Shown: one piece after another, positions 1,114-26,551 of the stretch | Numbering within the stretch: the first letter of the stretch is position 1 | Layout of the letters: each line of letters starts with the position of its first letter | From: Aspidiotus rigidus | Lineage: Eukaryota > Arthropoda > Insecta > Hemiptera > Diaspididae | Reading direction: 5' to 3' | DNA length: 64,000 nt | Assembly: GCA_035079385.1 (NCBI GenBank) | Contig: JAVHKY010000054.1 | Location: 16,720,001-16,784,000 of the forward strand | Position numbers and translations under genes: made by a program | Notes under the pieces: generated by a model | Seen by the model: only the letters and a program-made list of their open reading frames with translations | Told to the model about the DNA's origin: nothing | Database searches by the model: none

Positions 1114-3242
1114 TTAGTTACAGTTTTGATTTTCCAAGACAGAGGATTCCAATTGTACTTGACCAGTAGAACTTGTTGCACGAGTAGTGTAAAGGAAAGG
1201 AAACTGCTCAAATATAAACCTTCTTTTGCAGCAGCCCTCGATAACTTTAATAATTTTTCTCGAAGTCAACCACTTCGCTGAGCATGCATTATTTAGGAGG
1301 TTTCTCACATATTTCATTCCTGTAGACAGCTGTGAATACAAATATGTGAGGAAATTAATATCGTCATTAGAATTAAACATTTTTTAAAACTCAAAAAGGT
1401 TCATGCATTTCTTCTCTGATTGATAGATAAGGGGCAGGCTCAAAAATTTGAGGAGGAGGACTTGCAAAATGTTGAGCTTTGAACTCCAGGATGATTCCGA
1501 GCTGAACCTCCATAGATGTAGGACTTGAGAAAATTCAACGTCTGAGCCGTAATGATTGGTACAGGGGAAAATGGGTGGATGTCCACATAGAACGATTTGG
1601 AGAAACGGTTATTTCTCAATGGCGCCTTGGATCCAATTATACAGATTCTTTCTTATGGGCATTCACCTTCTTTCCCTGTTCTATGGAGGAGGTGTAGAAG
1701 AATTCACCCATGGACAAGCAACTTGAAAGAATTTCGTCCTTTACTCCTATAGGACTTGGCAACTGCACTGTTGAAAGAAAGACTTGAAATAATTTTAAGC
1801 TAATACAAGGACTGGTAATGCAGCAGTGAAATTATTGAAAGCAGAAAAATTTCCCGATTCCTTAAGGATGAAATCGTTGACTACGTACGCGCAAAACGCG
1901 CCGGCGCCGCTGTCCATCGACAATTATGCATAGATGTGGTTGCTTGCAGGAAGACTGTCTGAATTCAAAATAAAAAAACTTGACTATTTTGGACGGATAT
2001 GTTTACATTGACTGCATAAATGTAGCATCACCAGTTCATACTAAATAGTCGAAGATCCCTGGAGGGGTTGGAAAATTTTGAACGAGGAGCTCGTACTAGA
2101 GTAGTATTTGAGGAAAATTTTTGCCTCTGGAACATTCTTTTTCAAGTAGTGGGATACTTTGTTCTTCTATAAATGTGGGTCATGGAGAAATTTCAACGTC
2201 TGAGCCTTATATCTGAAAAAGGGAACCTGAGACAAATTTCACCCTTCAAACTTCCGACTTCCCGTTATAATCTTTCCAAGTCTTTATGTATAATTCGGAA
2301 AAAAAATTCTTTAATATTGAGTGAATCCTATGTTTATGTTGGTAGCTGTTACTTACGTAATAATAATCATAATAACAATGACGGGTGTATTCGGTCATAA
2401 CTTTTATATAACAAGGATTCTTTTTCTTGACATCTTTCTCCATTTTCGTGAGGAAATCCTTCTTATCCTCTTCGTACAGAGAAAGTACATTTACAAAATG
2501 TCGGTATATCATTTTACGTCGCTCCAGATGCTATATGAACAAAAATCAATTATTTATACGGTTGTAAAGTTCTAGACACGCACCAATCATGAGTGAAATA
2601 AAGAAAGGTAGTAATTACGGTCGGATATCGTTTCCCTTCCATACTATAGTAAATTTTGGTAGTTGATTTTGTGGGCCTTTTCCTAGCCAGAGTGTAAGGT
2701 TTATTTTTACGCGTCTGCCTCTGACTGTATTCGTCTTTCTTAGTAGAGTAAATTGTTTCACGTGGAACATATGTTGCTCTCAGCATGGCGACGTCGAAGT
2801 GTAAAGATCTCAATCCTGATTTAGAAAGTGTGAGCTGCGTTTGTTGGGTAGAATTTGGTACGAATAGGTCGGAAAGACGTAAAATAACACGTACTTTTAG
2901 ATTCGTTCACTGAAATTCTGAAAGGCCGCCTCCGTTTTTTTCTCGAATTTAGAGTCGTCGTGTTATGAAATCCAGTAAAATAACTCGTACTTCTAGATTC
3001 ATTCGCTAAATTTCTGAAATTCGTCTGTTTTTTTCTCGAATTTAGGGTCGTCGTGTTTTGAAATCCAACTAAGTAGTAACAAGAAAAATTCCAGTAATCA
3101 TACACCTCGAAGTAGAATTCATCTCTGAGTCAGAAAAATCAGAATGAAGTAGGTAAGGTATATATTCCTTATTTCTTCATAGCTTACCGATTTCAGTGAT
3201 ATAAATGACTACCATAATACTGGTGGTCAAAACTATTCTCAT
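1114..3242 (-). CDS. Gene A: secreted cysteine-framework family protein, 289 aa, five exons
   Basis: Exons on the minus strand: 3242-3188, 3122-2895, 2815-2619, 2530-2357, 1329-1114 (stop). Intron phases are 1,1,0,0 and all introns are GT-AG. Residues 1-18 form a hydrophobic signal-like segment starting MRIVLTTSIM. Exon 2 (residues 20-94) is twice the length seen in paralogues and carries an internal duplication of about 37 residues built on NTTTLNSRKK. Exon 3 (96-160) has ATYVPRE and KSTTKIYY. Exon 4 (161-218) starts HLERRKMIY and has C200 and C212. Exon 5 has C234 and C251-C252, with a C-terminal tail about 20 residues longer than in the other copies. The start was chosen because it gives a signal peptide and the same exon 1 phase as genes B to E. 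Function is unknown. The exon 2 acceptor (CAGAG) is the least certain join. Intron 4 (1027 bp) holds repeat sequence. Confidence 0.8.
2880..3085 (-). repeat. Two tandem copies of a ~110 bp unit inside exon 2 of gene A
   Basis: Two near-identical units lie side by side (about 2880-2990 and 2991-3085). Each contains TTTTTTCTCGAATTTAG and a GTCGTCGTGTT block. In the gene A frame they encode repeats of the NTTTLNSRKK...NES(R/K)ST type. The unit length leaves the frame open, so the duplication lengthens the protein without breaking it. Confidence 0.8.
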
Positions 3243-4672
3243 ACCGTACTAGATATACATTTTACAGAGTAAAATCAAGAATCATTTATTCAGAGTTAAC
3301 GTCCTCTTTTCCTCCATGATTCATTACTATCTATCTTCAATTGAGCTGAATAATCTAAGAATATCAATGCCGGATTCAACTTGCAATTAATTGATAACGA
3401 ATGATAAATGGAAAGATGATTACGACGAAGTGAAAAACAGAAAGAAGCTGTTAGCCGTTAAGTCGAATTTGTCTCTGAAAATCACTCTCATTAAATCCTA
3501 AATCTCTAGCCTATTTCAATTCCTCTAAAAACTTTCAAATCAATGAATGCTCCATGCTACCTTATTTTTTCAATGATTTTTCGTCAACCTTTATAGCCAT
3601 TATGATCCAACATCAGCCCATAATTCTGATTCCCAAGCACGTTTTTGCATACGTAAATAATATTCAAATCGGAATGACTTGAACTGCCGATTTTTGAGGA
3701 CCGGTCTCATGACGCCACACTGAATAGAAACCACGTCAAAAATGAAACTTCAACTTGTCTTAACATAGCATAAACTGACACAGTTTTTGCTTTTTGAAAA
3801 ATAAAGCATTATGTAAACCATCCTTGATGTACCTATTTTAATTGAGTGGATGAGTGTAGCTTGAGCAAGTAAAACCTTCCAGCATCGGAAAACCTCGTTC
3901 AGTTTGGGCTTTTACTGATACTCATTATCCTCAGGAAAAATGCATAGCAGTACTACCATTTTATTTTGAATCCAGAAAATTGGGTTTAATCCGAGAAAGC
4001 AAAGCCATCGAGCTCTCTTAAGGATATTGATCAGCATGCTTATAATGCCTTGTCTGACTTGTTCTAGTGGGTCGGAAAAAGGTACGAGCCTTTGTAGCGA
4101 CCTATCCGTTTCTGTGACTATGCTACTCGCAGATAAAATACGCATTCACGCGTACTTAATAAGATGTTGACGTACGATCATCACTCGATCGAGCAGTAAA
4201 GCCTAACGATTTTTCAAATCCTAGGTCCTCAATGAATAATCAGGATCGGAGTGTGGTTGTATGCGAAGAAAGACTGGTTAAAATTTACAATACTCTATCG
4301 CAGTGGAGATTCAGAAAAGCAAGACGGTGTAGTGGGCTAGGTTGAGGTTTGCAGACGAGCTCCTGAAAGTGATCAGGTAGCTTACTTTTGCTGCGCATCA
4401 CAATTCACGATGTGACAATCTTTAAGGTGTTTTAGGCTAATGATGAAACTAGTTTCGGTAAAAAATCAGATGGGGGCGAAGTTGACGAATGTATGTCGAA
4501 AAATTCTCGATTTCCAGCTGATTAATTCAACCCTGCCTCGAATTTAGTGTGGATGCCAAACGTTTGCCAAATAAAAGAAACTTGGTGTACAAAAATCTTA
4601 ATTTCTTTATCTCGTCTTCGAGCACCTTAGAAATGATGAAAAATAATACTGATGTATTTTAACCATAAAATA
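3243..4672. other. Spacer between genes B and A
   Basis: About 1.4 kb of AT-rich sequence. The promoter of gene A should lie in its left part. The 77-codon minus ORF at 3912-4145 has no recognisable motif or splice context, and I see no other gene. Confidence 0.5.
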
Positions 4673-5936
4673 CTATCTCTTAGGCTTATCCAATTCATAC
4701 GGCAAATATTTAAATCTCTTTTTGCAGCAATTTTCCAAAATACGTACTATTTTCTTAGTATTTAACCATTCTGCCTTACAAGCTCGAGCTAAGAGATTCT
4801 TCACATACTTCATACCCGTATGTAGCTGAAAAATACCAAATCCAGAATTACTCAATGAAATTAATATGAGGTTAGGTTCACAATACTTCGTCGTTACCGC
4901 TTACGTAATAGTGATCATAGAGGCAGTGGCTCATGAAAGAGCTGACTGCTTCTAAATAACAATTATCCGCTCTTTTGGGTGCCTCACTTATATTGGCGAA
5001 AAATTTTTTCTTCTCGTCGTTAAAGTCCGAAAATATATCTATTAAACGTAAATATTGATTTTTACGTCTCTCTATTCGCTGAAAAAAATAAGAAAAAATT
5101 ATTTTCTTCTCACACTTTCTATAGTGAATTTATTAAAATGAATCTCCTTACTGATGGTGTGGTTTTTTTGCTCTTGTAAACTATTTTCGTAGTTGATTTG
5201 GTCAACAGTGAAACGCTGCGCGGCCGGTAAGTACCACGTTTGCGTCGTTGGTCATACTTTGAAAGAGTCGTTATAAGATTTTCTCGAGGCACGTAGGTTG
5301 CTACAAATTTGTCTACATCGGATCGTAGGGAGCGTAATCCTGGCCAATAAAATATTTTGGTCATGATTTAGCGTACATACATTAATTAAAATTAAAAATT
5401 TTGGAAATACACACACTTTTAATTTGTGTCCTCCTGACCAATAAAGTGGAAGATTTTATCTTTGTATCAAAATCCTTCGGCGCATTTGATTTATTTCCTC
5501 TTCTTGAAATTGACACTGCTAAAAAAAAATACCTGTCATTTGTAGTCATAGGAATTTTATAAGACAGAATATCTTAAAGGCGTCTATGAAATTTTGATTT
5601 GTTTTCTACGCGGTGAGGTCGGTTGCTTTTACAAATATCCGTAAAGAGGATGCACCATTCATAGTAAAAAATTCGTTCGTTGCGCACTTTGTATAAATTT
5701 GAATGAGAAGTATCTCACTTAGGTAAGGAAATTAGATTTTGTCAAGTCAGTTCCACAATATTGAATGAAAGCATTCGGTAGCGTTAGTTACTGATATTAC
5801 AGTTTTCCCAAAGACTAATTTGCGTACCTAAGTAAGGTCACTCTTCATTATTGAGCCAACCTTTCTTCACAACCTTACCCATTCTATCAAAGTGCATGAA
5901 CAAAATAAGGAAGCATACTCGTAAAATACGTTTCAT
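4673..5936 (-). CDS. Gene B: secreted cysteine-framework family protein, 224 aa, five exons
   Basis: Exons: 5936-5879, 5518-5417, 5339-5152, 5078-4905, 4825-4673. Phases are 1,1,0,0. Residues 1-19 are a signal peptide (MKRILRVCFLILFM...). Exon 2 (33 codons) ends in the basic RRTQIK, and the exon 2/3 join creates a KR dibasic followed by LRSLRSDVDKFVATYVPREN. KSTTKIVY is in exon 3. Exon 4 begins RIERRKNQY and holds C156 and C168 in CYLEAVSSFMSHC. Exon 5 begins LHTGMKYVKNLL and holds C190 and C207-C208. The exons downstream of intron 1 span only about 850 bp, making this the most compact copy along with E. Closest in sequence to gene A (shared LRSL, VPRE, TGMKYV). The reading frame has no lesions. 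Function is unknown; secretion is inferred from the N-terminus. Confidence 0.85.
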
Positions 5937-8436
5937 ACTTTGCACAAAACTTGAAGGAAAAAATTAAGTAATTTAGGCGACTCAACCGTCAATAGCATTT
6001 TGCTACAAAGAATACTCAACACACACTTTTCTATGCTGCATCTCAGTGTTGGTTAAATTAAGACGCGGAATTTTCCGCCAATTGAAGTTGATTACGTATT
6101 CGAACGTCATCTTTATTCACGTTCATAGTAGAGTAGATAATCTCACACTTTCGATCTCTGGACATAAGGAATATACCATGGTAAAAAAAACGTATAGAGT
6201 GAGTTTTAGATATTCTATAAAAAGTTTAATCAAGTACAGTATCAGCCTCGAAGTAATCTCATTGTTCGCGAACTATTCCCAACCCCCTGTACTATAAAGA
6301 GTGAGCAATATTTCAGCAAGAGACTCAGAAACTGTTCAGAAATTTTACTCAGCATAACCTAATTTAGAAACGTTCGAAAATTTTGTGCCTAGCGTGACGT
6401 CATCATGGAATTCACAAACATTTTGACTTCAGCACGGACCTATTTGAGAAACTTCTAAAAATTTCAAGTAACAAATTACGGGAAGGAGAGAAAATACGAA
6501 AAAATATTGATTCAAAAGTAGGGGGGAAGTTGGTACAACCGCTTTCTGCTGTCACCGCACTCAAGGCAATGACCTGATTTTTTTCTAGGCACAAGGGTTA
6601 CACGCAGACATTTCTCAACAGAGATGAGTTGCAGTATTGGAGACGGCTACTGAAATTATAGATGACTATCGTTATCGGAGAGAGCTATTACTATATCAGA
6701 AATGGTAATCAACATCAAAGATAGATACTGCAGTCAGGTAATTATAAAAGCTGGTATAAGTCGGAGATGGCCATCGGCATCACGATATTAGAATGGGTAC
6801 CTTTATTGGAAATGGTTACCGATGGCTATCAATATCACAGATAGCTAGGTATACGTGTATCAGGAATTTCTATCTATATCAGAGAGGGCTACCAGCATCA
6901 GAGTCGGCCATAGGTATCAAAAATAGTTCCCGGTATCCCTAATGGTCATTGGTGTAATTAATTTTCATTTTACCTCGTTTCACATAGCCTACAACAACCG
7001 ACTCCAGTAAAGACGTAGTGCCACTATGGTCGTCACAATGGTTTTTGCGCTGTAATTGATTACATTTTTGTGTACTTTGAAATCTCTACTCGGGCCATAT
7101 TTTAGATCATGTGGGCCGGAAGTTGCCCATGCCAGTATTATCTGTATAAAGATCAAAAGCGGTGTAACGAAATGTCATAAACTCATGGTTCAGATCAAAT
7201 TTCTTATTCAAACTGTAGGCTAGCTTTCTCTTGCGAGCTTACTTTCTGTGTTAATAAGTACGTTGGATTAGTCAACAGAAACGGATGTTTAAAGGAGGAT
7301 AAAAATCCAAATATTAAAGAAGAATGAGCCTCCGTTTATAATCGGTCCTCTCTTTTCACACTGGGGAGAGCACTTAGCTTGCCTTTTTGAGCAGAAGATT
7401 ATGGTATGACCCAATAGACCAATTCCCTGTGACGTCAACATCTTGAATTTCGGTTGAATGTTTGTTCTCTGCTGCTGGCTTCGAGGCAGCAATACACACA
7501 GAACGTATCGATCATTCACTAGTATTCAAAAACGAGAAGTAAGTTAGCAATCGAAGCTACATATTTAAATTCTGCAGAACTTCTCAAAATAGAGATCTCT
7601 AATAGGTACATAAGAAACATATTGTTTTTAAATATCTGTATGTGACTGAATAGTTTCCTGTGTATTCTTATGGAAATCGATATCATGATTATGGCCGTAC
7701 TTCGACTCACTATCGCAGTATCGCTCACTATTAGCAACACTGTGTCGTCACCGAGGAATCGGTCTATTGGGAGCCAGAAAGCTCATTCCTGAAAGTCAAT
7801 ATCGTTGACGATAACGCTCTGCACATTTATGAAGATCAATAAGTCGGGAGAGCTTCTGCATAGCTTCAGGCTCGCATGATTCACCTGTAAGGGCTTTGCT
7901 AGGAGCGCTACTTTCCATGCTACACTCGAAGGTGATGGTTTATATAATAGTCCCATATAAATAACACAGGAATGGTTTTTTAAAAGTTTCTCACTACTTA
8001 ATATGTCAATCAATTTTAAAAAATGAGGTATACAAAAGCTGGAACCGAGTCTACTCTAACAATTTCAAAACTCATTTAGGGCTTTCCATTTGAATTTTAC
8101 AATAAAAAAGGGCAAAAAGGAAATACGTTGTATACTCATTATCACTCATCATCACCTTTGAGTGCGAGCTTTGGAGAAATTCCGTATAGTAGCGCATACT
8201 CCGCCTTTATTGACGAATAGCCACCGGGCCTCGGGCTCTCACCAAACAGGGGCTCAACACACCTGTAGTTGAATTATATTTCTCTCCTCAGAAAACTGAT
8301 AATCACTGCTAATTATCAAACTTTTCTTTTCTTATGAGGAATATTGGACCTTTACTATGTATTCCTTTGGCCCCTGAAGATAAATCTTCTAGGTCCGGGC
8401 CTATAGCTTTCTTTCTCCCACTTCCCTTATTGCTCC
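5937..8436. other. Spacer between genes C and B, with a degenerate short repeat
   Basis: No gene recognised in 2.5 kb. From about 6620 to 6960 a degenerate unit of roughly 25-30 bp recurs (variants of GGCTATC and TATCAGAGA), looking like an old minisatellite. The short ORFs at 6046, 6412, 7289, 7519 and 7783 show no motif, splice context or paralogue. Confidence 0.5.
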
Positions 8437-8444
8437 GATTATGA

Positions 8445-9081
8445 CAGTGTTTCTCAACCAGTGTGCCGCGGCACACTACTGTGACTCAAGCCCACGAGTT
8501 TTGATCGAAAACATAAATTAACACTAAAAAAAGAATTGCTAATTTTTTTTATTTACTCGAAAAAGTAATCATAAGCGCGACCTATCTGACTGATATGTTC
8601 CAGCTTTTGAATGTCATCAATTTTCGTAACAATTTTTTAAACTGGAGTCTAAACCTGCACCGAATATCATAAAACTCAAAAATTTTGTGCGACGTGGCCC
8701 AAATGCAGATCTTATTTCATTTTTCCTCTCAAACTTTAAAGATAGGAGAGCTCAGGGGGCTCCCCAGTGAATTCAAGAAACATCCAGACCTTTTTGCGTG
8801 TATTGGTGGCAGAACTTAAAATTTTCTCAAGTTATGGCGGACGGTCAAAGCTCTCATTTCTCGAAATACAGAAAAGGAAAGAAGCCTGAGGCCTCATATG
8901 GCCTTCTCGCACGGTCACAAATCCTGAAATTAGGAGGAGGAAATCATTTACGAGTATGGAGACATGAAAATATCAAAACGCTGAAAAACTTTGGACCCAA
9001 AGTTTTTGAATTATGCTGTGCCGCAGGAATATTGTCTCATGGAAAAATGTGCCGCAATGTAAGGAAGGTTGAGAAACACTG
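8445..9081. mobile_element. hAT-like nonautonomous element with TIRs and 8-bp target duplication
   Basis: The element starts CAGTGTTTCTCAACC and ends GAGAAACACTG, as in hAT family termini. It is flanked by GATTATGA (8437-8444) and GATTAGGA (9082-9089), an 8-bp target duplication with one mismatch. Just inside the left terminus is GTGTGCCGCGGCACAC. Length is 637 bp. A second copy lies inverted at 55173-55806. The 105-codon ORF inside is not a recognisable transposase. Confidence 0.85.
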
Positions 9082-9342
9082 GATTAGGACGTCTGAAAAT
9101 AAGTTTGGGGTGTGAGATTTTTGGGGGGGTCAACTTAAGTATGAAAATTTCAATCGGTAACGGAAAGTTTTTTCTCTTTCTTCTTCAATATAATAATTTA
9201 AATTTATTAGATCATAAACAACTCTGGATATTCATCAAGTTTTGAGAAGCTGCATCACGTCCGGTATCTAGTTTTCGAATGAGTGATAAACTTTATTTAA
9301 TTTATTTATAATACCTTGATTATTTTACTTTTACTAGAGTTT

Positions 9343-11055
9343 TTACAATGGAAGCGTAGCGTATTTGAAATTAAACCTTTTCCGACAGCAACTATGAATT
9401 GCAGATTCAATTTTACTTTTTGTTAACCATTCTGCCGAGCAAGCTTGAGCTAATAAATTCTTTATTTGGGACATCCCTGCGTTTCTCTGTGAATGAATAT
9501 AAATAAATTAATACTCGATGTAAATCAGTTTATACAGGACTACAGTATAATAACCAAACGTTCTGTTTAACTAAAAGTAGCAACAAAAATATGCAACGAA
9601 ACCCGAATGAAAATATTGATATAATTCTATTCAGTATTAGTAAAAGCTTGGGAAAGTCATTGAGTTTGACGCCTCAGCTAACTCATCCCTCCGATATTTT
9701 CGAGTAAGAAGTTTCGACTTGAGATCTAATGATCCCGTCCCTACATAACAGAAGGAGTGGTATAAAACACTTAATGGAAGGAATGTTGAGGGAGCCGGTG
9801 TTAGCAAGGTAGATTTTATTAAATCGAGAAATAGGTACGCAGAGAATCCCAACCTCCAGGAGTATTTGACCAGTTTTCGTGGTTGGTCAGGCGCGAGGGT
9901 GACAAGTTTTAAAAAAAAGAATGATATGATTAGCCAATTGCTCTTGAACGCTGTCTCGAGCCATACTTGGTGACTACAGAGGCCGCAAGTGGCCCGCGGG
10001 TCACTAATTGAATAGGCCCGCCGATTGTATGCCCTACGAGACTTGAAAAAATACAAAACCCAAAAAGATATGCCAACTCTTCGATAATGAACTCACGTGA
10101 TAATGATAATAAAAGCAATTTTCCATAAAACAACTGTGAGCTTCCAAGTAACAGACCGAATTTTTTTTAGGAGGTTTTTCTGTATTTGTCAGCACTTCTT
10201 GTCTCTCGTCCTTGTATTCTGCCAACACGCGTGCCAACTGCCAGTAAATCATCTTACGTCTCTCCGAGTTCTAAGAAAATAAATAGCACATCAAATTACT
10301 GGTACGGCCAACCGAGACAATATTTTGACTACAAAAAAAGCTCACTTTTGGATAACTTCTTTTTCTTTCATACGTTTTCGTCGAGGTCATCTTCGTTCTT
10401 CTTCGCATTTTATACGTTCTCCCGGTCGGCCTATGTTTTATTCTTTTACTTATCCACTTTAATTGTACGGGAGTCTTGAACGTTTCACGTGGCGTGTAGG
10501 TTGCTACAAACTGAGCGACAGCTGAACGGAAATCGAGTAATTCTGAAGGAATAATGAGAGAATATGAAAATAAAAAGCAGGTAGGCCTACTCTAATAGAA
10601 AAAACCTCACTAATCTGTGTAGGTACGTACGCGTGACTTCGCTTCTGGATAATTTAAACTTCTTATACATGAAGTATGTACCTCTGCTACCTCTCGTAAC
10701 CTTTGATTTATATTGACTCGTCGGGGTTGTCGTCGTAGCTGGAAAAATTAGGTACTCATATCATCATGTCTCATCTGGAATATTCAAATTGTAGTATTTG
10801 TATCATTTCTGAAAAATTTGGTCTCAAGGGGAAGATGCGTTTTTTTATGCTCCAAACCCATGTTTCTATTATTTTGATGCGTTTAAATAATCAGAAAATT
10901 CACTTTTCCCAATAAAATAGACTATACTTTTGTTTGACTTATAAAACTAATTAACATTCTAAATAAAATTCTATATAGCTCTCACCAATTTGCGTGTCGT
11001 ACATATCAAATGAGTACATCAATACAACTACAATATAAAACAAAATAAGATTCAT
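9343..11055 (-). CDS. Gene C: secreted cysteine-framework family protein, 230 aa, five exons
   Basis: Exons: 11055-10986, 10738-10631, 10542-10346, 10270-10097, 9486-9343. Phases are 1,1,0,0. Residues 1-23 give a strong signal peptide (MNLILFYIVVVLMYSF...). Exon 2 is exactly 108 nt, as in D and E; it opens with a Thr-rich run and ends in FKLSRSEVT. Exon 3 has FVATYTPRETF and a very basic stretch (KMRRRTK). Exon 4 begins NSERRKMIYW with C165 and C177 plus an extra C172. Exon 5 begins RNAGMSQIKNLL and has C199 and C216-C217. The dibasic site at the exon 2/3 join of A, B and E is absent here (VTQLLDF). Intron 4 is 610 bp and contains a hAT-terminus-like GC-rich patch. No frame damage. Confidence 0.85.
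9960..10020 (-). mobile_element. Possible hAT terminus remnant in gene C intron 4
   Basis: The minus strand reads a GC-rich GACCCGCGGGCCACTTGCGG patch resembling the subterminal sequence of hAT elements. No partner terminus was found, so this is a remnant at most. The 139-codon ORF overlapping it (9637-10056) lies within the intron and is judged non-coding. Confidence 0.35.
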
Positions 11056-12511
11056 AATTCTGATTCATGACATAGGTAGATAGCCTATAGCTTAGTAAGT
11101 CTGACTGAATTTTCAGAATTGGACAATGATTGTCGAATTTATAAAGAGGCGCTGGGCGCAGGAGATAAGACCTTTTGTAATAATGATTAGTAGATAACAA
11201 CAAAACCAAAAAATATCGCGATTATGAATTATCTTTAATTGATGTAGGTACCTACAGACTGGTAATACTGAGTGAGACAGCTGTATTTCAAAATTCTACC
11301 GCGATAGCTTTAAAATTTACAAATAAAGGGAGAACAGAACTATCGTCACCTACATAATTTTATTTCACTCGTTTAGGCACGATGTTCCTCAATACCTAGT
11401 CTTGATCATGAGCTGATGGTGTGTTAACGATTATCTATGCTGGTCAGTACCTAAGATAAGTTTCTTCATTTCCTTATCATTGTTTGTCAGTCCACGTTAT
11501 TCTTATACAACTGACATTTTGAGCAACAAAAATTGCAATCGTGGAGTTCGAGAATACCCGAAAAAATACAAGAAAATTTGTATAAAGTCTTCCATTCACG
11601 TAAGGTCTACAACTGTATGGTACCTATTTCCAACATTAACGGCGACTCGTGCGGCAAAGTGCGGAAATTAATTATCCAAAACTGTCTTCAATCACCATAT
11701 TTCATCCTTTTCTTTTGTGACGTCATCAGTGTCATAAATGAATCATCAATTTAATTCATGATATAGGTAAATTGCCACTCCTAGGTACTCTTCATTCGAC
11801 TTTGAACCAGAATACAGAACCAAAATCCCAATACCTTTTGACTAAGTCGTACTTGTTGTTTTGTTTTTTGCTTTTTACTATACGAGCTCGTCAACTAGGT
11901 TTTGAAGGGCTATCAGTTTGAAGAAGGTAATTGTGCCTTGTGGAGAGTTCGTGAAGATTAAGGTAAGAAATAAGAGAGGCCCGTTGGGCAAGATTTTTAG
12001 GTATGTCGATTCACAATTGCGGCGCAGCGGCACAAGTACTTCACACTTCGGGTACTTTTGTGGAATATCAGCAGAACACTTGTGACGGTTCAGTAGACCA
12101 CGCCCACTTTACATAATGCCTGGAGATGACGTGCCATAAATGAGTCACATCAGCAGTATAATGCTGGGGCACAAGGTTCTTCAATTGTGATACTCATGCA
12201 TCAGTTCACAGACAATATTTGAAGGATCGTTTGTACAATGAGAAATTTTACAAACTTAATTGTGGAATCCTATCCGTTACACCTTTGTCATACGAGAGTT
12301 TTTTGATAAACACTTCTTCAGACCAGTTAGGTCACATGGCGTATAACTTGAGCGTCATACTGTCGTCAAATCACTATGGTAGAATATAGAGACTTCACAA
12401 ATGCCTCTGAAGAGCAGAAACAATTGCGTCACTTCCTCATAATCCAACCGTCACAACTGCTTCTCCTTTGTACCTGGATGTGTCTCAGTTGAACCGCATG
12501 GCACATACCGC
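11056..12511. other. Spacer upstream of gene C
   Basis: About 1.45 kb, AT-rich on the left. It should contain the gene C promoter. I see no coding pattern; ORFs at 11480 and 11533 overlap each other and lack splice or motif support. Confidence 0.5.
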
Positions 12512-15724: not shown

Positions 15725-18586
15725 TTAAGCAGTTCGAATATGCAAATACTTGAATCTACTTCGACAACAACGCTGGAGGATACGAATGATTCCTTCAGTC
15801 GTTAGCCAATTAGCTTCGCAAGCACGAGCCAAAAGTTTCTTCATACTCCTCATGCCACCATCCTGAAAAAAAGAAGGAAAAAGGTCAATGATTTGATTTA
15901 AAGCGGTCTAGTTAAACTTAGACACATGGTCAACTTACGAAATAAGCGTAATCACAGTGACCCACGAATGTTGAGTAAGCGTTCATATAACAGGAGCTCT
16001 CTTTCACACCTTGGTCCTTTGATATTGTAAGTAATTCCTTTTTCGTTTCATCAAACAACGACAAAGTATTTACAAAATGCTTGTATATGATGTCTCGTCT
16101 CTCTATCTTCTGTTTGCGGGGCAGATAATGACAAAAATCATTTGCATGGATCATAGCACTATACTGAGAAAAGATAGCTAATGGGACTTGGAAAAAGTTT
16201 TGGTAGTGACCACAGTTGATATCTTGGCCGAGGGGAATGATCTCTGACTTGGTTGAACTACTTTCGATTCCAAAGCTAGAAACGTGAAAAGAATAATATT
16301 GCGGCTTCAAAAAAAAAACAGGGGCTCCAGTGGAACAGAGAGGCATTGAAGAGCTGGTGTTCAGTATTTCCTACTTGACTGCGCTCATACAATTTAGACT
16401 CTTCATTTTTTTCTCTCTTTCTTTTACTTTTGTTCAACAAGTATATTATATCTTTAGACTAGAGGTCAGTTGGAAATTTGCGAGACGCTATTTGTGAGAA
16501 TGGCGTCTTTTTATGACCTCGACCTAATTTACGCATTAAAAAAATTTTTACCCAGGTGTAGTCTGATGACCATGGTCTGATGAAAGAACTTTATAGGTCA
16601 ACAGGTTGAAATTGTAGGCTAACATATTGTATATAAGTTAGCTCATAATATTATACAAGGGTAAAATCCTGGCCCGATATGAAGTATAGGCTTATCCTGA
16701 GCCTAGAAATATTGGTGGAAAGGCGAGTGAGAGGAGGGAGTGAGCCTTTCAGCTGGTTAGCTTAATTTCTAGAAACTATACTAAGGGCTATCTGTTTGAT
16801 GACATCAACAATGTTTTTTTTCTTCAGAGCTCGGCCCTTTGAAAACACCTAAAGACGTAATATACATGATCTAATGTTTTTCCATGAACTAGAAAACTGA
16901 CGTTTTCACTTTTTTTTAGCATCGAAATTAGAAAATTATAAGTGAGGTTCCGATTTTGACTGTGTATGTACATTATGTTGGCGGGGAATCCGCTATCTTT
17001 TTTGTTGAGGGGTACTTTCAGGATATTTTCGTCCGCGAGCGTGGGCGCGATTGGTCCCAGGTTGATGACGTCACCAAGAGGGGAGAGGGACTTAGAATAA
17101 TTTCGACCTCTAAGCTATATATGATAAGAGAGAGACTTGGGAAAATTTCGACTCTTGAGCTATATGATAGGATTTTCTATATGTTCTACTTTTTGGAAGA
17201 CCTTCCGCAGTGGAATACGAATCTTGCGGGTTCCCCGCTCGCCGCTGCAGGACTTGCAACGGCATCCTAATTTTTCTTTTTCTTCTTCTTTTCGATGCAA
17301 GTGGTACCTCACCGAAAAAAAAAACTTCGCTTTGCTTCTAAATTGGATATCGATACAATTTGGTATCATTGTTCTGACATGACGGGGTTTTAAAAAAAAT
17401 TTCTACACGATTCCACGTAAGTTATCGATCATCGATCGTAATTAAAAAAAAAAAAAAACTTAATTATTCCTCAATCAAGTAGTAAGTTCGAAATTCTTAC
17501 CGATGGGTACATTTTTTTTGTTGGATAGTAAAATTTTGTCACATATTTCGTTCTGTTCGTGACTACTTTTTGTCTAGTCGTACGACGCCAATGGAAGAAT
17601 CTGAATGCATGTTTGGTCGGTTCATGAGGCCGCTTGTAAGTGGCAACGAACTCCGCTACTTCTTTAGCGAGTGGTATTAATGCTGTGAAAAAAAGTATAA
17701 TATGCAATCGTGTTATATGATTTTTTAACACGATATTCATCTTTCATGATGAACATTTCGAGTTCCTACTCTGAACTTCCTCCATTTTTACCGGTCTGAA
17801 TCTAGGTCTACTGATTCTTGGATCTCTTGTATCTTTCATCGTGGTGGTTGTTGGCGTAGTGTACCGTCCTGACATACCTGTAAAAATTCAAAATGCATTT
17901 TGTTATACGAATACCGACAGGTAGGTCTATTTCCCTGATCCTACCCCCCAGGCTGAGCCACTGCTCCTAGAATACATAATTTCGAAACTGTATGTATCAT
18001 CCACTGAGCCGAAGAGGATCGTCTCTCATTGACGAGCAGTTGATTCATTCGATTCCTCTATCGACAAATTAGGAATCATTCGCGAACTCTAAGCAGAGTA
18101 GAGGTTTTTCCATTTACCCAAAAAGACTTCCAATGATCGAAGAGACTTTATATGTACGAAGTTCGAGCCTTAAAAATTTTCACTTTCAATTTCGAAAGAT
18201 AAAGTGAATGAATCGTGAGTTATTTGAGGTACGTCATTTCTGAACAGAGCTCAGGAGCAGTTTGAAAGTGATGATAGCACATCTCTAACATCTACTTAGT
18301 TGTGATCCGCTACGAAAGAATTACCCCAATCATTAACGAAGAAGCCTAAAGGCTGGAAAAAGACTACCTAATACTACTTTTTTTTTTTTTCGGTCATTTT
18401 CTTTGATGAATAAAGTTGAAAGATTTTTTTAAAAATATATTTCAAAACACATTCCTGCAAAAAGACGATTTTTCAAGAATTATTTTTTACGATAAAATTT
18501 TCTTTGTTGGCAAAAAAACGTAATTTCTTACCTGTCTGAAATGAACTAAGAAATAATAAAAATCTTAGACAGGGAATTTTATTCAT
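15725..18586 (-). CDS. Gene D: secreted cysteine-framework family protein, 217 aa, five exons
   Basis: Exons: 18586-18532, 17877-17770, 17682-17501, 16109-15939, 15862-15725. Phases are 1,1,0,0. Residues 1-18 are a signal peptide (MNKIPCLRFLLFLSSFQT). Exon 2 is 108 nt, Thr-rich at its start, then RPRFRPVKMEEVQ. Exon 3 has EVAEFVATY, but the PRE motif is changed to RPHEP. Exon 4 begins KIERRDIIYKHF and has C155 and C167. Exon 5 begins DGGMRSMKKLL and has C187 and C204-C205. The exon 2 donor (CAGA|GTAGGA) was picked because it restores the family phase. Intron 3 is 1391 bp against 73-88 bp in the other copies because it contains a repeat element. Frame intact. Most similar to gene E in exons 4 and 5 (one residue shorter exon 4 than A to C). 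Confidence 0.8.
16950..17290. mobile_element. Dispersed repeat with GCGGGGAATCCGC termini inside gene D intron 3
   Basis: Runs from GGCGGGGAATCCGC to GCGGGTTCCCCGC and encloses TCCGCGAGCG, TTGATGACGTCAC and copies of an AGCTATATATGATAGGAG unit. The same order of parts occurs at 49930-50350, so this is one repeat family. It accounts for the long intron 3 of gene D. Confidence 0.65.
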
Positions 18587-18669
18587 ACTGTAATGATTTA
18601 AAAATAAGAGAACTTTACAAATATACAGAATAAATCTCACTTTTGATGCCTTTGAAGCTTCCTTCTCCG

Positions 18670-18963
18670 CTAATCACGAGATTCTTTTTGGGCTATTTTC
18701 ACACGGGTAAGTTTTATGCGAGACTCGAGCCATAAGATAAGAATCAACATGCGAAATATCTCGATAGTTGAACTGCGTCTTATAAATAAAATCACCTTGA
18801 GAGAATACCATTCGAATCGATAGTAAGTACGGTAATTTTTCATTCTTTCTCCTTCTTTTTTTTCTGTTTCCGGCATATCGTGCTCGTATTTCCGAAACGG
18901 ATTTTCCTCACATCTTTCTTGAGCGATAAAATAGATAGCCACTCCGATTGACGAAACGACCAA
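18670..18963 (-). CDS. Hypothetical 97-codon ORF upstream of gene D
   Basis: Single open frame starting MVVSSIGVAIYFIAQERC, which looks like a short signal or membrane segment, followed by a charged region (FRKYEHDMPETEKKEGERMK). It ends only 84 bp upstream of the gene D start, on the same strand. A GTGATT donor-like site follows YSLK. I recognise no homologue and none of the family motifs. It could be a small secreted protein, an alternative 5' exon or chance. Confidence 0.25.
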   Translation of the reverse strand: MVVSSIGVAIYFIAQERCEENPFRKYEHDMPETEKKEGERMKNYRTYYRFEWYSLKVILFIRRSSTIEIFRMLILILWLESRIKLTRVKIAQKESRD

Positions 18964-20440
18964 CCCCCTAATGGAGAGTTCAATAGGACGTAGTAGGTAA
19001 AATCTTCAAATCAGGAACTAATGTCGATGAATAAAAAGAGCTCCTGTGTCAATTTTTTCGAATGTTGATACGCCTTTGTATACAAATAAGTATGATACCA
19101 CTTTTTCAAGTTTTAATTTATAGGCTAGTAGAGATGATGAGATTGGAACATTAATAGTCAAAAGAGAAGGAGGAGGGGGTGGTCGCGTGAAACTAATGAC
19201 ATTTTAAATCGCCGATAGGACGAGAACCCCACTGAGAAAAAAAAGTAGTTTACATGACTTTCGATTGTAGTCCCGGTGCTCCGCTCTGCAAAAAATTGTA
19301 TAATTTACTGAAAAAAATAGTTGAACTTACTAAAAAAAGTTGTAAACATTGATAAAATTTAGTAATATTTACTATTTTTTATAGTAAAATTGACCATTTT
19401 CTACGAGCGGAGTGCCACGACTACATTTATAGTCATTTAAATCGTAGAGATTTTTTTCCGTGTACAACCCTTGCAAAATAAAATTGATAGTGATTTTAGA
19501 TAGTAAATTTTAGACACTACCTACATCCAGTGAGGTACAAGTGGTTTCGAATCAAGATCGTGATAGAGAAATTCATAGTATATGACATGACAATGTCACA
19601 CTTTCTGAAAAAAATTACCTGCGCAACTAATGATTAGCTTTTGTCATTCTTGTCAAAATGAGCAACTGTGATATAAGTTGAAAGTGTGTCAATTTTCCAA
19701 AGGGATATTAAAAACTTGACTATTACCCTTAATGACCTGAAAAAGTTTTGCAAAACTTCTCATACTTGCTGAAAGTTTCGACGAGATCTGTTACAAAATT
19801 TGAGTCGAATACGTAAAGAACCTAAAAGACTAAAATTGTAGCTCCTAGACTCATTTGTTTCGTAGATGGACTATTTCTCTTTAGATTACTTCGCGAAATG
19901 CGGTGTAATTAAGGGGAAAAAATTATGAACTTTAATCTTTCAAAGTACAATTCCAGCTTCGAACAAACCATGCACGACGTGTATTGCGTTCCGGAAATAG
20001 AAACTATCATAGTATTAACGTAATATGTACTTACGTCAGTTATGTAGTCTCTGATAACTGTTACGCTGATATTACATAACTTTAGTGGAGTAATTTTTCA
20101 AAAAATGTTAAAGTACGCTACGCATCATTATTCATAATTGAATGAAGAGGCTCCACGATTAATCAATTACAACCATTACTTACGATACCTATAATGTGCC
20201 ATAGCTGTAATTCATCAACAAATTAATATTGTTTAAAATAAAATGATATCCGTACATACTCGTATACTTATAGTTGAATAGTCCTACCAGTAGGTGAACA
20301 TATTCGGTAAATTAATTTTCTCATGTTTCGAATGTGAAAATTACCAATTTCAATTTTTGTCTCAAATTAGTCGGCAAGGGCTACGGCTGAGGTAAACTTG
20401 AGTTGTCCCAATGTTGAGAAAAACAGAACCAAAGTAGAAA
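18964..20440. other. Spacer with a MITE at about 19204-19445
   Basis: TTTACATGACTTTCGATTGTAG... at 19250 and an inverted counterpart at 19400-19445 (GAGCGGAGTGCC against GGTGCTCCGCTC) mark a small inverted-repeat element with an AT-rich core. The rest (19450-20440) shows nothing recognisable. Confidence 0.5.
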
Positions 20441-20446
20441 GGTAAT

Positions 20447-21600
20447 TTATTGGTTCAACTTTATTTTCAATATATTTGAGACCTTATTATCGTCTTTGAG
20501 AGAGACGGGGCCGTATGAGCGTAAGTGGTCCCTGAAAAACCGCACCTCCGGTACCGGTATCCACCCCTTAGGGCATTGCGAGGGTAGTCCAGAGGGCTCG
20601 AATCGAGAGTAGCCTGGCTCCATTTCTCCTGGGGTTCCACACGCTGTGGAATGTTCGTCAATGAGGCCACAACAGGGATCTACTCTACTGACCGAGGGAG
20701 CGCTCAGCACTCAACCTGGAATTCAGATAGTCCTGTACCATGGACGCACGTGTATCAAATCCTCCACCAGAGCTTTCAGTCACCACTGGGAACTCACTAG
20801 GTGCTCACCAGCAATGTTTCGCGACTCTGGCTTCTCAGGCAGGGGTTTCTTCTTCCTCCTCCTCTTCTTCTTCTTCTTCCAGCTTTTCCTCTTTTTTTTC
20901 CCTTCTGTGGGCGCCCCCTACTGAGCGCCCTGTATATGGTGGTACTGGTGCTGGCGAGAGGTGATGTGGCAGCAGCAGCAGCAGCAGCAGCGTGGGGGAT
21001 GGTACACGTAGATGTGAGAGGCCAACGATTCCGCGTTTATTTTCTTCTTCATTACCTTAGCGGCAAATGTAGATTACATATTCCATGCCTGCGATGTTTT
21101 GAGCATGCATGGAACCAGATTACTTGGGGTGAGTTCTTCATCTTCTCCGATCTCAGCGAGAGACCGTTTTAGCTCACCCCACTCACGTCTTTACGTCTCA
21201 CACTTGAAGATGGTGTGTTGTGGTTCATCATTTAGCTCCTGACAGTGTGAACACAACGGTTGCTCAACTTTCCCCATTTTGTGTAGGTATTTGTTGAAGC
21301 ACCCATAGCCACTCATCATTTGTGTAAGATGAAAATTTAGCTGGCCACGGTCTCGGTCCATCTACTGGTCAAGATCACGTATTAGCACGCGGGTCCACTC
21401 ACCCTTTGCTGTTTGGGCGAGTTGCTCTTTCCATTTGGCAAACAAGGAGCGCCTGGCCTCCTGCTTGACCCGCAAGACTGATTCGTGGTCCTTATCCTCT
21501 TATTTGCCTCGTGTTCGCTCTTCCGCAAGTAGCTCGAGACCTTAATATAATGATAATAATGTGTAAATTGATAGATGGCGTACAAAACATGTAATCCATT
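20447..21600 (-). mobile_element. 3' end of an R1/Jockey-type non-LTR retrotransposon
   Basis: The minus strand between about 21560 and 21010 reads in fragments WTRVLIRDLDQ, GQLNFHLTQMMSGYGCF and CSHCQELNDEPQHTIFKC. This order (LTQ..SG.GCF, then a C-x2-C..H..C knuckle) is typical of the region after reverse transcriptase in R1, LOA and Jockey-related elements. In-frame stops are present (for example after DLDQ). The downstream part (21000-20447) is GC-richer than the surroundings and probably its 3' tail; it contains CTT/CCT and CAG microsatellites. Confidence 0.75.
20847..20991. repeat. CTT/CCT and CAG trinucleotide microsatellites
   Basis: A run of TCC/TTC triplets at about 20847-20890 and CAGCAGCAG... 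at about 20970-20991, within the retrotransposon tail. They create long spurious ORFs in several frames. Confidence 0.9.
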
Positions 21601-21603
21601 CAA

Positions 21604-22500
21604 GTGATCTGAGTACGTCTTGAATAGGGGTGCAGTGATCCCTCAAGCTTTCAAAAACTTTCTAAAATTATTACCTTCTACCACTAAAGAAGGGCAAACA
21701 ATTTCTCATTTTACCTATTGGAAATGAATTTTTTACTTTTCCTAACCCTCTCGCTTCTCCTTCTTGAAATCGTACGGAAATTCATCTTCAAAAATTGATC
21801 ATTGTTTAATCATAAAATTTACCCAATTATTGAATCTTCTTTCCCACGTTTTCATAGATTAACAAAACTAAAACTATACAGGTACCTAGGTTAACAAATA
21901 TTTAGGATTTTGATCGTTTCAGGATAATCCGAAGATGAAAGACTCAACTGATTTATGGGACCAATGACGTCTTGAAATCAAGATGCTCATAAACTGAGGA
22001 ACTATATTACGAGTACGAATATATACTCGTAAGATAGGTATCAATCTTACGAGTACCTAGGTACTAAGTATTCGTTCGTGTTGCCCGTGCAGCGCCACTC
22101 GTTTTCCATGATGGAGTGGGTGCGGATTGCGTATGCATTCAATTTTATTTCCCCCAACATTGGAATCGACCCTTTGGGGTATAACTTCAGTGTTGGAAGA
22201 AACTCCTCGGCGAACCCCCTCTTCTACTCGGCAACCGCCAAGCTACAGTGTCGTCAGGCACGCAAAACATTAGAACACCAACACCAGCTTAGCTGTAGTA
22301 GATCGCTGTTGGAGTCTCTTTCTCTTATACTGTTATCTCAAGGTACTTATAAGAACAACTGAAATTTACAGCACATGACATCGATATTGGATATTTTCTT
22401 CACTCTGGTGTTCAAATAAATTGTAAACCAATGAAATGAGGGTGATAATATCAAAATTTAGAAACCACAAGTTTTTTTTATCACCAAACTTATTACATTT
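21604..22500. other. Unassigned stretch with a GC-richer island at 22080-22300
   Basis: A 94-codon plus ORF (22078-22362) lies in a patch with higher GC than its surroundings. I see no domain, splice site pair or transposon motif. It may be another mobile element fragment. Confidence 0.3.
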
Positions 22501-22503
22501 CAC

Positions 22504-24432
22504 GAGATAAGGAATCAGGCAAATGCTATACTATCCGCAATAGTGTCAAAGCCTTATAGGCTTAGCAAGAAGTTGCTTTTGCCACCAAAATGGGGAATGA
22601 TTGTACCCATAACTCTAGTTTAAATCGGCTGAGTTAATTCTCTCCGCATACCGCGTTATGACCGCAGAGCGATGAAATTTGCAAATATTTTAGACGATGT
22701 GGACGTGTATCCATGGTATCTTTGAAAAAAAAATCCATATTATCCCCAGTTTCTAGCAAAAACAAAACTTTATTTCAATTAGCAAAAAATATAGGAGAAG
22801 AAAAAAATCCAAAGTTTGGACATGGAGCAAATCTTGAAGATATAGAACGTCATTGAAAAAAGTAGCACCCTCTATATTTAACGCATATTCTCAGGCCAAA
22901 AAGGCTCTGTTACAGGTGTACAAACAGAAATTATTCACTACTACAACTATAGACTACACCAGTATGAAACCGTCCAAAGCCCTTCACCATCTAAAAAACC
23001 TGGCGGACACAGGCGTTTTTGCGTTTAGGACAGAATGCTGCGGGAAATTGGTCTCTCAAAAATCGACCCCAATGTGAGAATTAGTATTGCGTCTCAAGAC
23101 AGCTTACTTGCTGTAGAAAAATTAAGAAGAAATCGCCGACGTGGTATACATACCGCGTTATAGACCAAGTTTTTCGTGATAATAAAATATCAATTACAGT
23201 GTGATTACAGTAGCAAAAGTAGCCAAAATATATTTCCAATCGCAAATTTGCTCCCCATAAGAAAACATAGGAAGCAAACCGATCATATGGTATTAATTAA
23301 AATTGAGAAAGAATTGAGGGGTTAAAAGTTCAATTTTGGAAGCTGATTACTTCATACATTATAAAAAATAAACTTTTTTGCCCTCAATCCTTTTTAATTT
23401 TTGTTTAATTTCATACTGATCATTGCTCCCCGTGTATTTCTTATGGGAGTAAAATTGCGCTTGGAAATATCCAAGGTATTTATCGATATTTTGTTATCAC
23501 AAAAAACTGGGTCTATTGGTGTAATTTTGAAAAAAAAAATGAAAAGCCTTTGCAAATCGCGGCCGTCTACAACACCTCGAATCATTCCACGAATCCCGCC
23601 GGAAAAAGTTCTGTCAAGAAAATGGAATTGCCATTTTGACATCATTTTTGCAACAATGGGCACAATATTGCCGCATTTTTCAAGCGTTTTAATTGCGGGA
23701 ATTTCCAAAAGTGGCGTGGTCAATTCGCATCAGGCTACTACTGTAGACGCGCTAGTGTCGTGGACGAAAAGGTGATCACATGAAAATTTACATAGAGCGT
23801 ATGTTATTTCAACTAGCTGTATCTCTGTTAATACTGAAAAAAAAAGTACCACTTATAATGAATGACCTTTCTTAACTCTCTTATAACTAGTAGAATAGTA
23901 TGAAACTCATAAAATTCCACCAATTATCTGAAACATCACCTTTTTGTCCAAATTCCACAAATGGCCGCTATAGTAAATGTAGAGGGCGACTCTTTTGGGG
24001 CCTGACGCAAATTGTTCTGTCAAGAATTTAGCAATAATATGTTCTTGTCAACCATATAATATTAATTTTTCCCGGCGGCCGACGCACTGCTGGTTGAAAC
24101 CACCCAAATGCTCGCGTTTGTAACTGAAGAAATCAGTAAAATTAGAGCCCAAGATTTGGGTCAGACAGCTAGTCGCCAACAGCAACAATCGATGCTTGGA
24201 AGACAACAATTACTTACAAGAAAGGTTTATGAAACTATCTATACTCCGTTCACGTTAAGAACAGATAGAAAATAGTACTGTGAGTCTGTGAGAACGGAAC
24301 GCTCCAGGTAATCTCAATCTACCGTTCCATTCTCGAGGTACTACTTTCTATCCTTTCTCAACATGAACAGAGTATACAATAAGGCTTTCCCACTATTGCG
24401 GATAGTATAGCTTTTGCCTGATTCTTTATCTC
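22504..24432. mobile_element. Terminal-inverted-repeat DNA element, ~1.9 kb
   Basis: Starts GAGATAAGGAATCAGGCAAA and ends with its inverted partner; about 55 bp match, including CTATACTATCCGCAATAGTG in both arms. Internal ORFs (22853-23077; 23401-23775) might be transposase relics, but I cannot name the superfamily and see no catalytic triad. No clear target duplication. Confidence 0.75.
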
Positions 24433-24659
24433 TCCAAACGTAATAAACAACACTTCTCCTGGTTTCTGAATTTTGGTATATTATCACAATAATTGTAATA
24501 ATTGCATTGACAAATTATTTGAACACTGGAGTTGAGAAAATATCACCATATTTCTCAATACAATCGATTAAAATGTAAAATATTGAAATGAAGTTTTGTT
24601 TAGAACTTTCAGTAAGGAACTAGACATATAAAATAGGTATGCGCAAGTGATTAGAATAG

Positions 24660-24914
24660 GATCGTCACCACACTGATAAAGTTGAAGGAGGAGCAACCTG
24701 AGTAGTATCCTAGGAGAATTTTAAGCATCAAACATCGAATACCAGAATTCAAACGAAAAAAATGAAGGAAATTCACTAATTTCTTGTTTTCATCGATATA
24801 ATCTCTCTAATTAACCAAAATTCAATGTTTGACATTTAAATTATTCTCACACGGCCCTCCTGAAATCTTCTAAAACTGCTCCTCCTTCAACTTTATCAAC
24901 ATGGCGATGATTAC
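24660..24914. mobile_element. Short MITE
   Basis: Inverted arms contain TGATAAAGTTGAAGGAGGAG at 24675-24694 and its complement at 24880-24900; about 255 bp in all, with no coding. Confidence 0.7.
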
Positions 24915-25047
24915 TTTCAGTGAGATAAGGAATCGGTAATCTCATTTTCTTGATCGTTGTTTTGCAGACGCGTTCATTAAACTTAGTACGGCAGATCAGT
25001 TCACCTCACCCTCCCGTCTTCATTTGTCATTAACTTCATTAATGACA

Positions 25048-25119
25048 GTATCATGAGCCCATTTAGGTAATTTAGTATAGTAGTATCATGAGCCCATTTA
25101 GGTAATTTAGTATAGTATG
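25048..25119. repeat. Direct duplication of a 36-bp unit
   Basis: GTATCATGAGCCCATTTAGG followed by TAATTTAGTATAGTA occurs twice in direct succession with almost no differences, suggesting a recent tandem duplication. Confidence 0.85.
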
Positions 25120-25500
25120 TATGTATCGCACCACCTTTTTTGCCGCAGACGAATATTTTTTTCCAACAATCGCGTGACATAGATTTTGTTCAGAAGAAAA
25201 TATATTACCTGGATATAGGCCTAGGTACCTCAGTAGGCCTACATATGATAGTAATGAAGATGGCGAGAAGGAGGCCAACGTAACACATAATGAACTTTCT
25301 TTGAAATTCTTCGATAGTACCCATATACGTATAATGAACACAGGCACCTATAATAATGTTCGCTACTATAATAATACCTAAGCTACGGGTCATAATAATA
25401 ATATTATAATGCTGAGAACAGGTATAGATACAGAGATTTAAAAATTATTTCTCGTTTTTAATCGTTGCTCTCCAATTCGACTTAACAGAAGAATTCGATT

Positions 25501-26551
25501 CTAGATCTTATCAAATAGTAGAAATTTGAATCTTTCTTGACAGCAACCGCTGAGCACTTTGAGAATCTTCTCGGTATTCAACCAATCTGCTAAGCAAGCC
25601 TGCGCCAACAATTTCCGCATATTTCTCAGTCCTCCGAGTAACTACTCACAGATGATTGAAAACGAAATGAAAATAATTAGAATCGCATTCAACATTTGTC
25701 GTTTTTTTAACACATAAAACTTTACTCACAAAATATCCATAGTTACAATGTTCTATAAAATAGGAGTGGGTTTTCAAGTAGCAGGGCCCTCCTTTTCCCC
25801 GATTGACAGTTTTATTCGTAAGTATCCTCATCTTTTCTTCGTCGTCTTTCGACAATACTTTTACCAGGTGTGAATATATGGTATCTCTTCTTTCTTTGTG
25901 CTGTGTAAGATAGAATGATAGCGACGAATAAGGTATCATCGTTGAGACGTCTGTAGATTAGGTACCAACAGTTGAATAAATTCAATACCGTAGGCCAGAA
26001 TTTCTTTTTTTTGTATATGCCTCTTGTTGTTGATTTTGTTATTCTTGATGTTTCGTAAGGCTTATTATATTTTTTTTTTCGTCTACGAATACTTCTAATT
26101 ACAGTGGGTCTGAATGTTTCAGGCGAAATATAGGTGGCTACATACTGAGCAACGTCTGCCCTCAGAGAACACAGCCCTAAGAAAGATAATACAAGAACTT
26201 TCGCTCTTTACTATACGGTCGGCTAAGCAAGCTACGAACCACAAGTTATGAGCACGATTAGAGGAAACTTACTTTTTATTTTTACTTCAGATAAATGAAA
26301 TCGAAATTCTCTCTGTCGTACGTGACCCGCTTCCTCTGTACTTTCTGAGTCATTGGCAGGCCAACCATTTGTCATTATTTCTGTAAATATTCATCAATAA
26401 TACACTTTACCAAAAACAAGAGTAAAATTGATTCTGTCGAGTAGTTTCGCCCGACGGTGACGTCCAAATTTGAGTTATCAGCGTATCTTCAAACCTTACC
26501 CTTTTTGACGATAAATATGAGAGCGATACTGTACGTCAGAACTCTATTCAT
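25501..26551 (-). CDS. Gene E: secreted cysteine-framework family protein, 219 aa, five exons
   Basis: Exons: 26551-26500, 26380-26273, 26176-25989, 25900-25730, 25641-25501. Phases are 1,1,0,0, and all introns are 88-119 bp, so the whole gene fits in 1.05 kb. Residues 1-17 are a hydrophobic leader (MNRVLTYSIALIFIVKK). Exon 2 is 108 nt, acidic then basic (SESTEEAGHVRQREFRF), ending SEVKIK; the join gives KR then LCSLRADVAQYVATY. Exon 3 is extremely basic (RRRKKKYNK). Exon 4 begins HKERRDTIYSHL and has C156 and C168. Exon 5 begins LLGGLRNMRKLL and has C189 and C206-C207. This copy is the cleanest template for the family structure. The exon 5 acceptor (GAGTAG) is weak. Function unknown. Confidence 0.85.

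Follow-up and report, generated by a model that had tools for sequence, protein, structure and literature searches.

A tandem array of at least 20 genes in the scale insect Aspidiotus rigidus encodes small proteins in which the last two exons very probably represent a stand-alone legumain prodomain (LSAM domain) without a protease. The array spans about 93 kb of contig JAVHKY010000054.1 (C54), from about 16.653 to 16.746 Mb. The five genes at its right end, g1 to g5, lie in the window, the 64,000-nucleotide stretch analyzed here (positions 16,720,001 to 16,784,000). The relationship proposed, from comparison of sequences and gene structures, is descent from legumain prodomain exons, not membership of the curated family PF20985.

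An initial examination of the window without database searches, the sequence-only reading, had described five minus-strand genes with a common five-exon layout at 1114..26551. The gene models bear this out. All 25 exons could be modeled in open frames with GT-AG joins, with intron phases 1,1,0,0 and no internal stops in any gene, and the stop codon of g1 (1114) and the start codon of g5 (26551) fall exactly at those limits. The exons are as follows.

3188..3242, minus strand: g1 exon 1, hydrophobic N-terminus, putative signal peptide; ends in phase 1
2895..3005, minus strand: g1 exon 2, variable, basic end; phase 1-1
2619..2815, minus strand: g1 exon 3, basic, ATY motif; phase 1-0
2357..2530, minus strand: g1 exon 4, first half of LSAM-like domain; phase 0-0
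1114..1329, minus strand: g1 exon 5, second half of LSAM-like domain plus tail, stop
5879..5936, minus strand: g2 exon 1
5417..5518, minus strand: g2 exon 2
5152..5339, minus strand: g2 exon 3
4905..5078, minus strand: g2 exon 4, LSAM-like
4673..4825, minus strand: g2 exon 5, LSAM-like, stop
10986..11055, minus strand: g3 exon 1
10631..10738, minus strand: g3 exon 2
10346..10542, minus strand: g3 exon 3
10097..10270, minus strand: g3 exon 4, LSAM-like
9343..9486, minus strand: g3 exon 5, LSAM-like, stop
18532..18586, minus strand: g4 exon 1
17770..17877, minus strand: g4 exon 2
17501..17682, minus strand: g4 exon 3
15939..16109, minus strand: g4 exon 4, LSAM-like
15725..15862, minus strand: g4 exon 5, LSAM-like, stop
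26500..26551, minus strand: g5 exon 1
26273..26380, minus strand: g5 exon 2
25989..26176, minus strand: g5 exon 3
25730..25900, minus strand: g5 exon 4, LSAM-like
25501..25641, minus strand: g5 exon 5, LSAM-like, stop

The encoded proteins g1 to g5 are 250, 224, 230, 217 and 219 aa long, with g2 to g5 showing 33, 35, 33 and 39% identity to g1. K+R exceeds D+E in each (50/21, 54/20, 44/16, 42/18 and 45/21). The earlier picture of a multigene family of small, basic proteins in an array is supported. Peptide comparison of the exons within the window gives E-values down to 6.8e-17, beyond chance; conservation is highest in exons 4 and 5, and exon 2 is hardly alignable among the five genes. Putative signal peptides were called from the hydrophobic first exon alone. 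That exon suggests that the proteins are secreted, and secretion, as first proposed, is probable. At g1 exon 2, a duplicated piece forms a 44-nt repeat (2931-2974 and 3024-3067, 93% identical and 93 nt apart), the upstream copy of which reads into a stop.

Profiles of exons 3, 4 and 5 were searched, at iE (the E-value of the individual match) <0.02, against the window extended by 150 kb on the left and 50 kb on the right. Exon 3 matches 11 places, exon 4 matches 20 and exon 5 matches 20. Those of exon 4 and exon 5 follow each other in strict alternation between +25.9 kb and -67.2 kb relative to the window, and every one is on the minus strand. The sequence-only reading had advised looking beyond the window's left edge, and there lie the copies named m1 to m15. 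At the same threshold, the exon-4 and exon-5 profiles find no place in the window at 27-64 kb or in the 50 kb to its right. By a simple script criterion, exon 4 is bounded on either side, and exon 5 where it begins, by in-phase, phase-0 splice sites in all 20 copies, the donor of m10 being weak. A basic exon 3 occurs in m1-m4, m6 and m7, with a weak candidate in m5, and in 12 copies (g1-g5, m1-m7) the domain is, or seems to be, preceded by a basic linker. Among the other eight, the left-hand copies, at least m9 and m12 have a Ser/Thr-rich exon in place of the basic one. Exons 1 and 2 of several copies beyond the window are candidates only. Exon-1 candidates with a hydrophobic stretch were identified in 13 of these 15 copies, those of m8, m10 and m13 being doubtful; the search returned no exon-1 candidate for m2 or m5.

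The strongest single argument for common descent comes from comparing exon boundaries and phases with those of the C27 gene (C27:586001-596000, minus strand), the single full-length legumain-like gene that the genome yielded. In nearly all array copies, exon 4 starts 2-3 residues before an ERR-like motif and ends 5-8 residues past the second Cys; both of its boundaries, and the start of exon 5, are in phase 0. The next-to-last exon of the C27 gene runs from its ERR motif to five residues past the second Cys position, again with phase 0 on either side; the last exon of that gene, which contains the last two Cys, likewise begins in phase 0. These boundaries and phases match. Four Cys and one Trp are invariant in all 20 rows of the array alignment, with Cys intervals of 12 (20/20), then 20-23, then 18 (20/20), as in g1 (12/22/18). 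The corresponding spacing is 12/22/17 in mouse legumain and 12/18/16 in the active-type legumain P0003, and in the database protein P0001 (source name legumain) just three of these Cys remain (20, 17). Two disulfides are conserved in LSAM domains (PMC7489914). Array and legumain prodomain (LSAM, PF20985) agree in spanning two neighboring exons whose boundaries and phases correspond, in four Cys in the same order with nearly the same spacing, in helical pattern and in similar length. The fold of LSAM is death-domain-like, and from human legumain the disulfides would be expected to join Cys 1 to 3 and 2 to 4. The array genes differ from legumain in lacking a catalytic domain, in placing a signal-like exon and a basic or Ser/Thr-rich linker in front, in scoring below the Pfam cutoff and in forming an array of at least 20 copies.

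Profile searches point the same way. A profile of the eight left-hand copies, searched against 177,635 PDB sequences, returns three matches at E<=10, all of them legumains, the best at E 0.011 (0.013 in a first run). A profile of all 20 rows finds four legumains (0.0062, 0.0063, 0.05, 0.66) plus three TAL-effector repeat proteins, and a profile of the five right-hand copies (g1-g5) alone finds legumains at 0.046, 0.046 and 0.27 plus five TAL entries. The TAL-effector matches, seen with three of the profiles, were rejected as sums over many repeats in which no single stretch passes. Full-length g1-g5 retrieve three alpha-galactosidase chains at E 1.7-2.4. In shuffle controls against four legumain prodomains, 2, 6, 11 and 0 of 4000 shuffles score at least as well as the real 20-row alignment, and 1, 6, 1 and 9 of 4000 do so for the eight left-hand rows. 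Legumain prodomain is also the commonest weak match in Pfam, found for 2 of 5 full proteins, 3 of 5 exon-4+5 proteins and, at E<=1, 8 of 20 members, where the next family reaches 2 of 20. Matches to CPW_WPC, zf-RING_16 and others, confined to one or two members each, were treated as chance. The sequence-only reading could not place the genes in any known family; exons 4 and 5 can now be likened to the legumain prodomain.

Several results count against this assignment. No member reaches the PF20985 cutoff of 25.2 bits, the best scoring 16.2, and a genome scan with PF20985 gave no array member. With the five right-hand copies alone, as many as 377, 282, 735 and 58 of 4000 shuffles reach the real score, so that this subset does not pass the control. 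Alignment of the 20 rows to single legumains by hhalign gives probabilities of just 3.4% and 0.4%, with E-values of 0.013 and 0.16. The g4 protein matches CPW_WPC about as well as the legumain prodomain (E 0.017 versus 0.013), and in all 20 copies the third Cys interval exceeds that of mouse legumain by one residue. The profile search that the sequence-only reading had called for thus produced a likeness to the legumain prodomain, through PDB matches and shuffles, without bringing any member to the Pfam cutoff, and for that reason the case for homology rests on the combined evidence. The cutoff evidently misses full-length relatives as well: the C27 gene scores 21.5 bits against PF20985, and a legumain-like protein of Planococcus citri has no match at E<=1. 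Chance likeness among small, Cys-rich helical proteins of unrelated origin would account for scores that are individually weak and for the failure of the right-hand five. It is nonetheless improbable, as the Cys pattern, the exclusively legumain PDB matches of the left-hand eight, the shuffle controls, and the exon boundaries and phases agree independently.

The family appears to be undescribed, as the sequence-only reading supposed, in that no description of its own was found in the proteins and papers searched. A protein database search with g1-g5 returned none of 1445 candidates at E<=1. With eleven models, one protein of 1607 was found, P0005 (E 1.7e-9), a distant relative whose exon-4 peptide agrees with that of m9 at 42 of 58 residues.

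A genome scan for the legumain catalytic family PF01650 identified three loci only, on contigs C27, C41 and C47. Those on C41 and C47 are near-identical, and we take them by their motifs to be GPI8/PIG-K; they may be a duplication or two assembly haplotypes. The spliced model of the C27 gene matches PF01650 at E 1.4e-60. Its nearest database proteins are P0001 (42%) and P0002 (41% over 98%), the latter being the Planococcus citri protein mentioned above, a match that by itself would place the source among scale insects, probably mealybug-like ones. In place of the catalytic His, C27 has I, P0001 has Y and P0002 has L; in place of the catalytic Cys they have A, S and S in that order. P0003 has both catalytic residues. 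The C27 gene and P. citri P0002 accordingly read as a conserved legumain pseudoprotease that has lost both catalytic residues. It has prodomain exons in common with the array and differs in being full-length, with an inactivated catalytic domain, and in the single locus found. No active legumain was seen in the genome in this one family scan, which scored only the best candidates. Near the array, a motif search of 264 kb found no C13 motif or parental legumain gene, and the array genes themselves have no catalytic domain.

Relatives of the array domain also occur elsewhere. Searching the genome with the g2 domain yielded 44 matches. Of these, 29 fall inside the array and 15 outside, 6 of the 15 at E<0.01. 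Two of these better outside matches are two-exon copies, at C54:16452823-16453466 and C28:8330428-8331103. The first belongs to a g1-like copy on the plus strand (C54:16450001-16456000), about 200 kb left of the array and on the opposite strand to it, and a further weak match lies near C54:16479925. The second is a copy of m7 on another contig (C28:8328001-8332500), at dS 0.37, with domain exons intact and the frame of exon 3 broken.

Divergence within the array, described at first as rapid, is better regarded as old. For exons 4 and 5, the proportion of nonsynonymous differences (pN) is below that of synonymous differences (pS) in all 190 pairs of the 20 copies, which indicates old divergence under constraint; the same holds for all 55 pairs of exon 3. 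Synonymous differences are saturated (pS>=0.74) in 134 of the 190 pairs. The ratio of nonsynonymous to synonymous rates (dN/dS), a check that the sequence-only reading had proposed, is below 1 in all 56 measurable exon-4+5 pairs (0.17-0.83, median 0.36). The closest pairs give 0.21 (m9/m12), 0.18 (g1 and the copy at C54:16.45 Mb) and 0.22 (m7 and the C28 copy). Positive selection as the source of the divergence was not supported, there being no sign of it on average. Surface residues are highly variable, and the Cys, the Trp and core leucines are kept. In a domain tree, copies cluster roughly by place in the array and all 20 split from four legumains (97/94), although inner forks are mostly weak (4 of 21 starred, 10 open).

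The reading of function that we favor, tentatively and at somewhat under even odds, is that the array proteins are propeptide-like caps acting in trans on active legumains, perhaps those of plants. The genes would make secreted, free LSAM domains, usually positively charged. Each would sit over the active site of a separate legumain, as the attached LSAM does in legumain, and so act as a propeptide-like inhibitor or stabilizer of active legumains, perhaps the vacuolar processing enzymes of the host plant. In mammals LSAM is positively charged; it covers the active site, which belongs to an acidic catalytic domain, and limits activity (PMC9788469). Domain net charge is +4 to +12 in 12 of 12 right-hand (type A) copies, and -4, -6 and -3 in the prodomains of the three dead legumains, with +6 in P0003. 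The right-hand free domains thus look more like a working cap than like a cap still carried by a dead enzyme. Separate propeptide genes have a precedent in the I29 propeptide-like inhibitors (CTLA-2alpha, crammer, BCPI), which are shown in the cited accounts to inhibit cathepsins (PMC4089206, PMC3551606). I29 proteins derive from cathepsin-type (C1A) propeptides, whereas the array would derive from a legumain (C13) prodomain, with inhibition here proposed by analogy. As the only full-length legumain-like gene found is catalytically dead, a foreign target is the more likely, and for a sap feeder the host-plant vacuolar processing enzymes are the obvious candidate. Hypersensitive cell death requires these enzymes, which are legumains, and aphid infestation induces them (PMC6473326). 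The role of the legumain cap, the charges, the I29 genes and the roles of the plant enzymes together lead us to favor the trans-acting cap.

Two results run counter to that function. The eight left-hand (type B) domains range in net charge from -7 to +8, and overall constraint (dN/dS below 1) is unlike what an arms-race effector would show. The mixed type B charges also fit a different account, nearly as likely: that LSAM serves only as a helical scaffold held by disulfides, detached from legumain and put to another binding use in saliva, immunity, reproduction or the extracellular matrix, with legumain not the target. Surface residues that differ strongly around conserved Cys, Trp and core leucines are what such reuse may produce, as are linkers that differ in kind between subgroups. 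The uniformly positive charge of the type A domains is what an active-site cap needs, but basic charge would suit many other roles too. Considerably less probable is that the proteins partner or regulate the dead legumain of the insect itself, or an active one missed in the assembly by a search resting on one family scan. That a full-length dead legumain is kept both here and in P. citri implies that some legumain-based function persists in the lineage; the dead gene, however, retains its own prodomain and would need no free cap.

Membership of, or convergence with, the bicycle effectors of aphids and coccids, which have saposin-like folds, is very unlikely. The likeness is in the hemipteran setting, the signal-like first exon, the Cys/Tyr-bearing helical domain and the many divergent copies; bicycle effectors too are putatively secreted, disulfide-bearing helical proteins of sap-feeding Hemiptera (PMC9168663, PMC13041983). 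Bicycle candidates without CYC motifs are mentioned for two mealybugs and a scale (PMC9168663). As these sources describe them, however, bicycle genes have phase-2 microexons, CYC motifs, a saposin-like fold and diversifying selection, and average about 17 exons with nearly all internal exons in phase 2 (PMC9168663, PMC13041983). Array genes have five exons with phases 1,1,0,0, on which the bicycle assignment was rejected, and profile searches return legumains and no saposin.

An effector, venom, salivary or immune role, the range first suggested, is possible for the array proteins. In a fuller scenario, which we consider unlikely, the prodomain was freed, the insect's own full-length legumain died as an enzyme, and an array of secreted caps came to dock on plant vacuolar processing enzymes and dampen cell-death defense; the family would then be the first of stand-alone legumain-prodomain inhibitors, and a feeding effector. 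No description of stand-alone legumain prodomains was found in the literature searched, which marks the limit of those searches and is not proof.

Directly upstream of g5, on the same strand, lies UPF1 (window 27500-30500, minus), identified from an open frame (29949-30419) with a match to regulator of nonsense transcripts 1 (E 2.7e-48). On its left side the array looks, by eye only, as if it adjoins a DEAD-box helicase gene. Between g2 and g3, the stretch at about 8300-9110 (plus) has an inverted counterpart at 55120-55930 (minus), with translated identity mostly 80-95%, and the pair is probably a mobile element. Inverted repeat arms of 68 nt, 88% complementary and 1821 nt apart, lie between g4 and g5 (22490-22557 and 24379-24446). 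A 723-residue open stretch occurs between m4 and m5 (L011:6069-8237). Frames near it and elsewhere in the fetched region resemble Penelope-like reverse transcriptase in their motifs. A transposon origin of the array itself, which the sequence-only reading had named among the outcomes that would refute it, finds no support and is disfavored by the clean multi-exon genes, the strict array order and the coding constraint.

Legumains, including the vacuolar processing enzymes of plants, drive cell death in defense as well as the processing of proteins. Cathepsins have known stand-alone propeptide inhibitors (I29), and no legumain counterpart was found described in the literature searched. If the array is a natural family of at least 20 free LSAM domains, it offers a ready set of ligands with which to ask how the cap recognizes its enzyme, and an otherwise anonymous, effector-like family would gain a testable target. 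The conserved dead legumain of scale insects raises the companion question of what legumain scaffolds do without catalysis.

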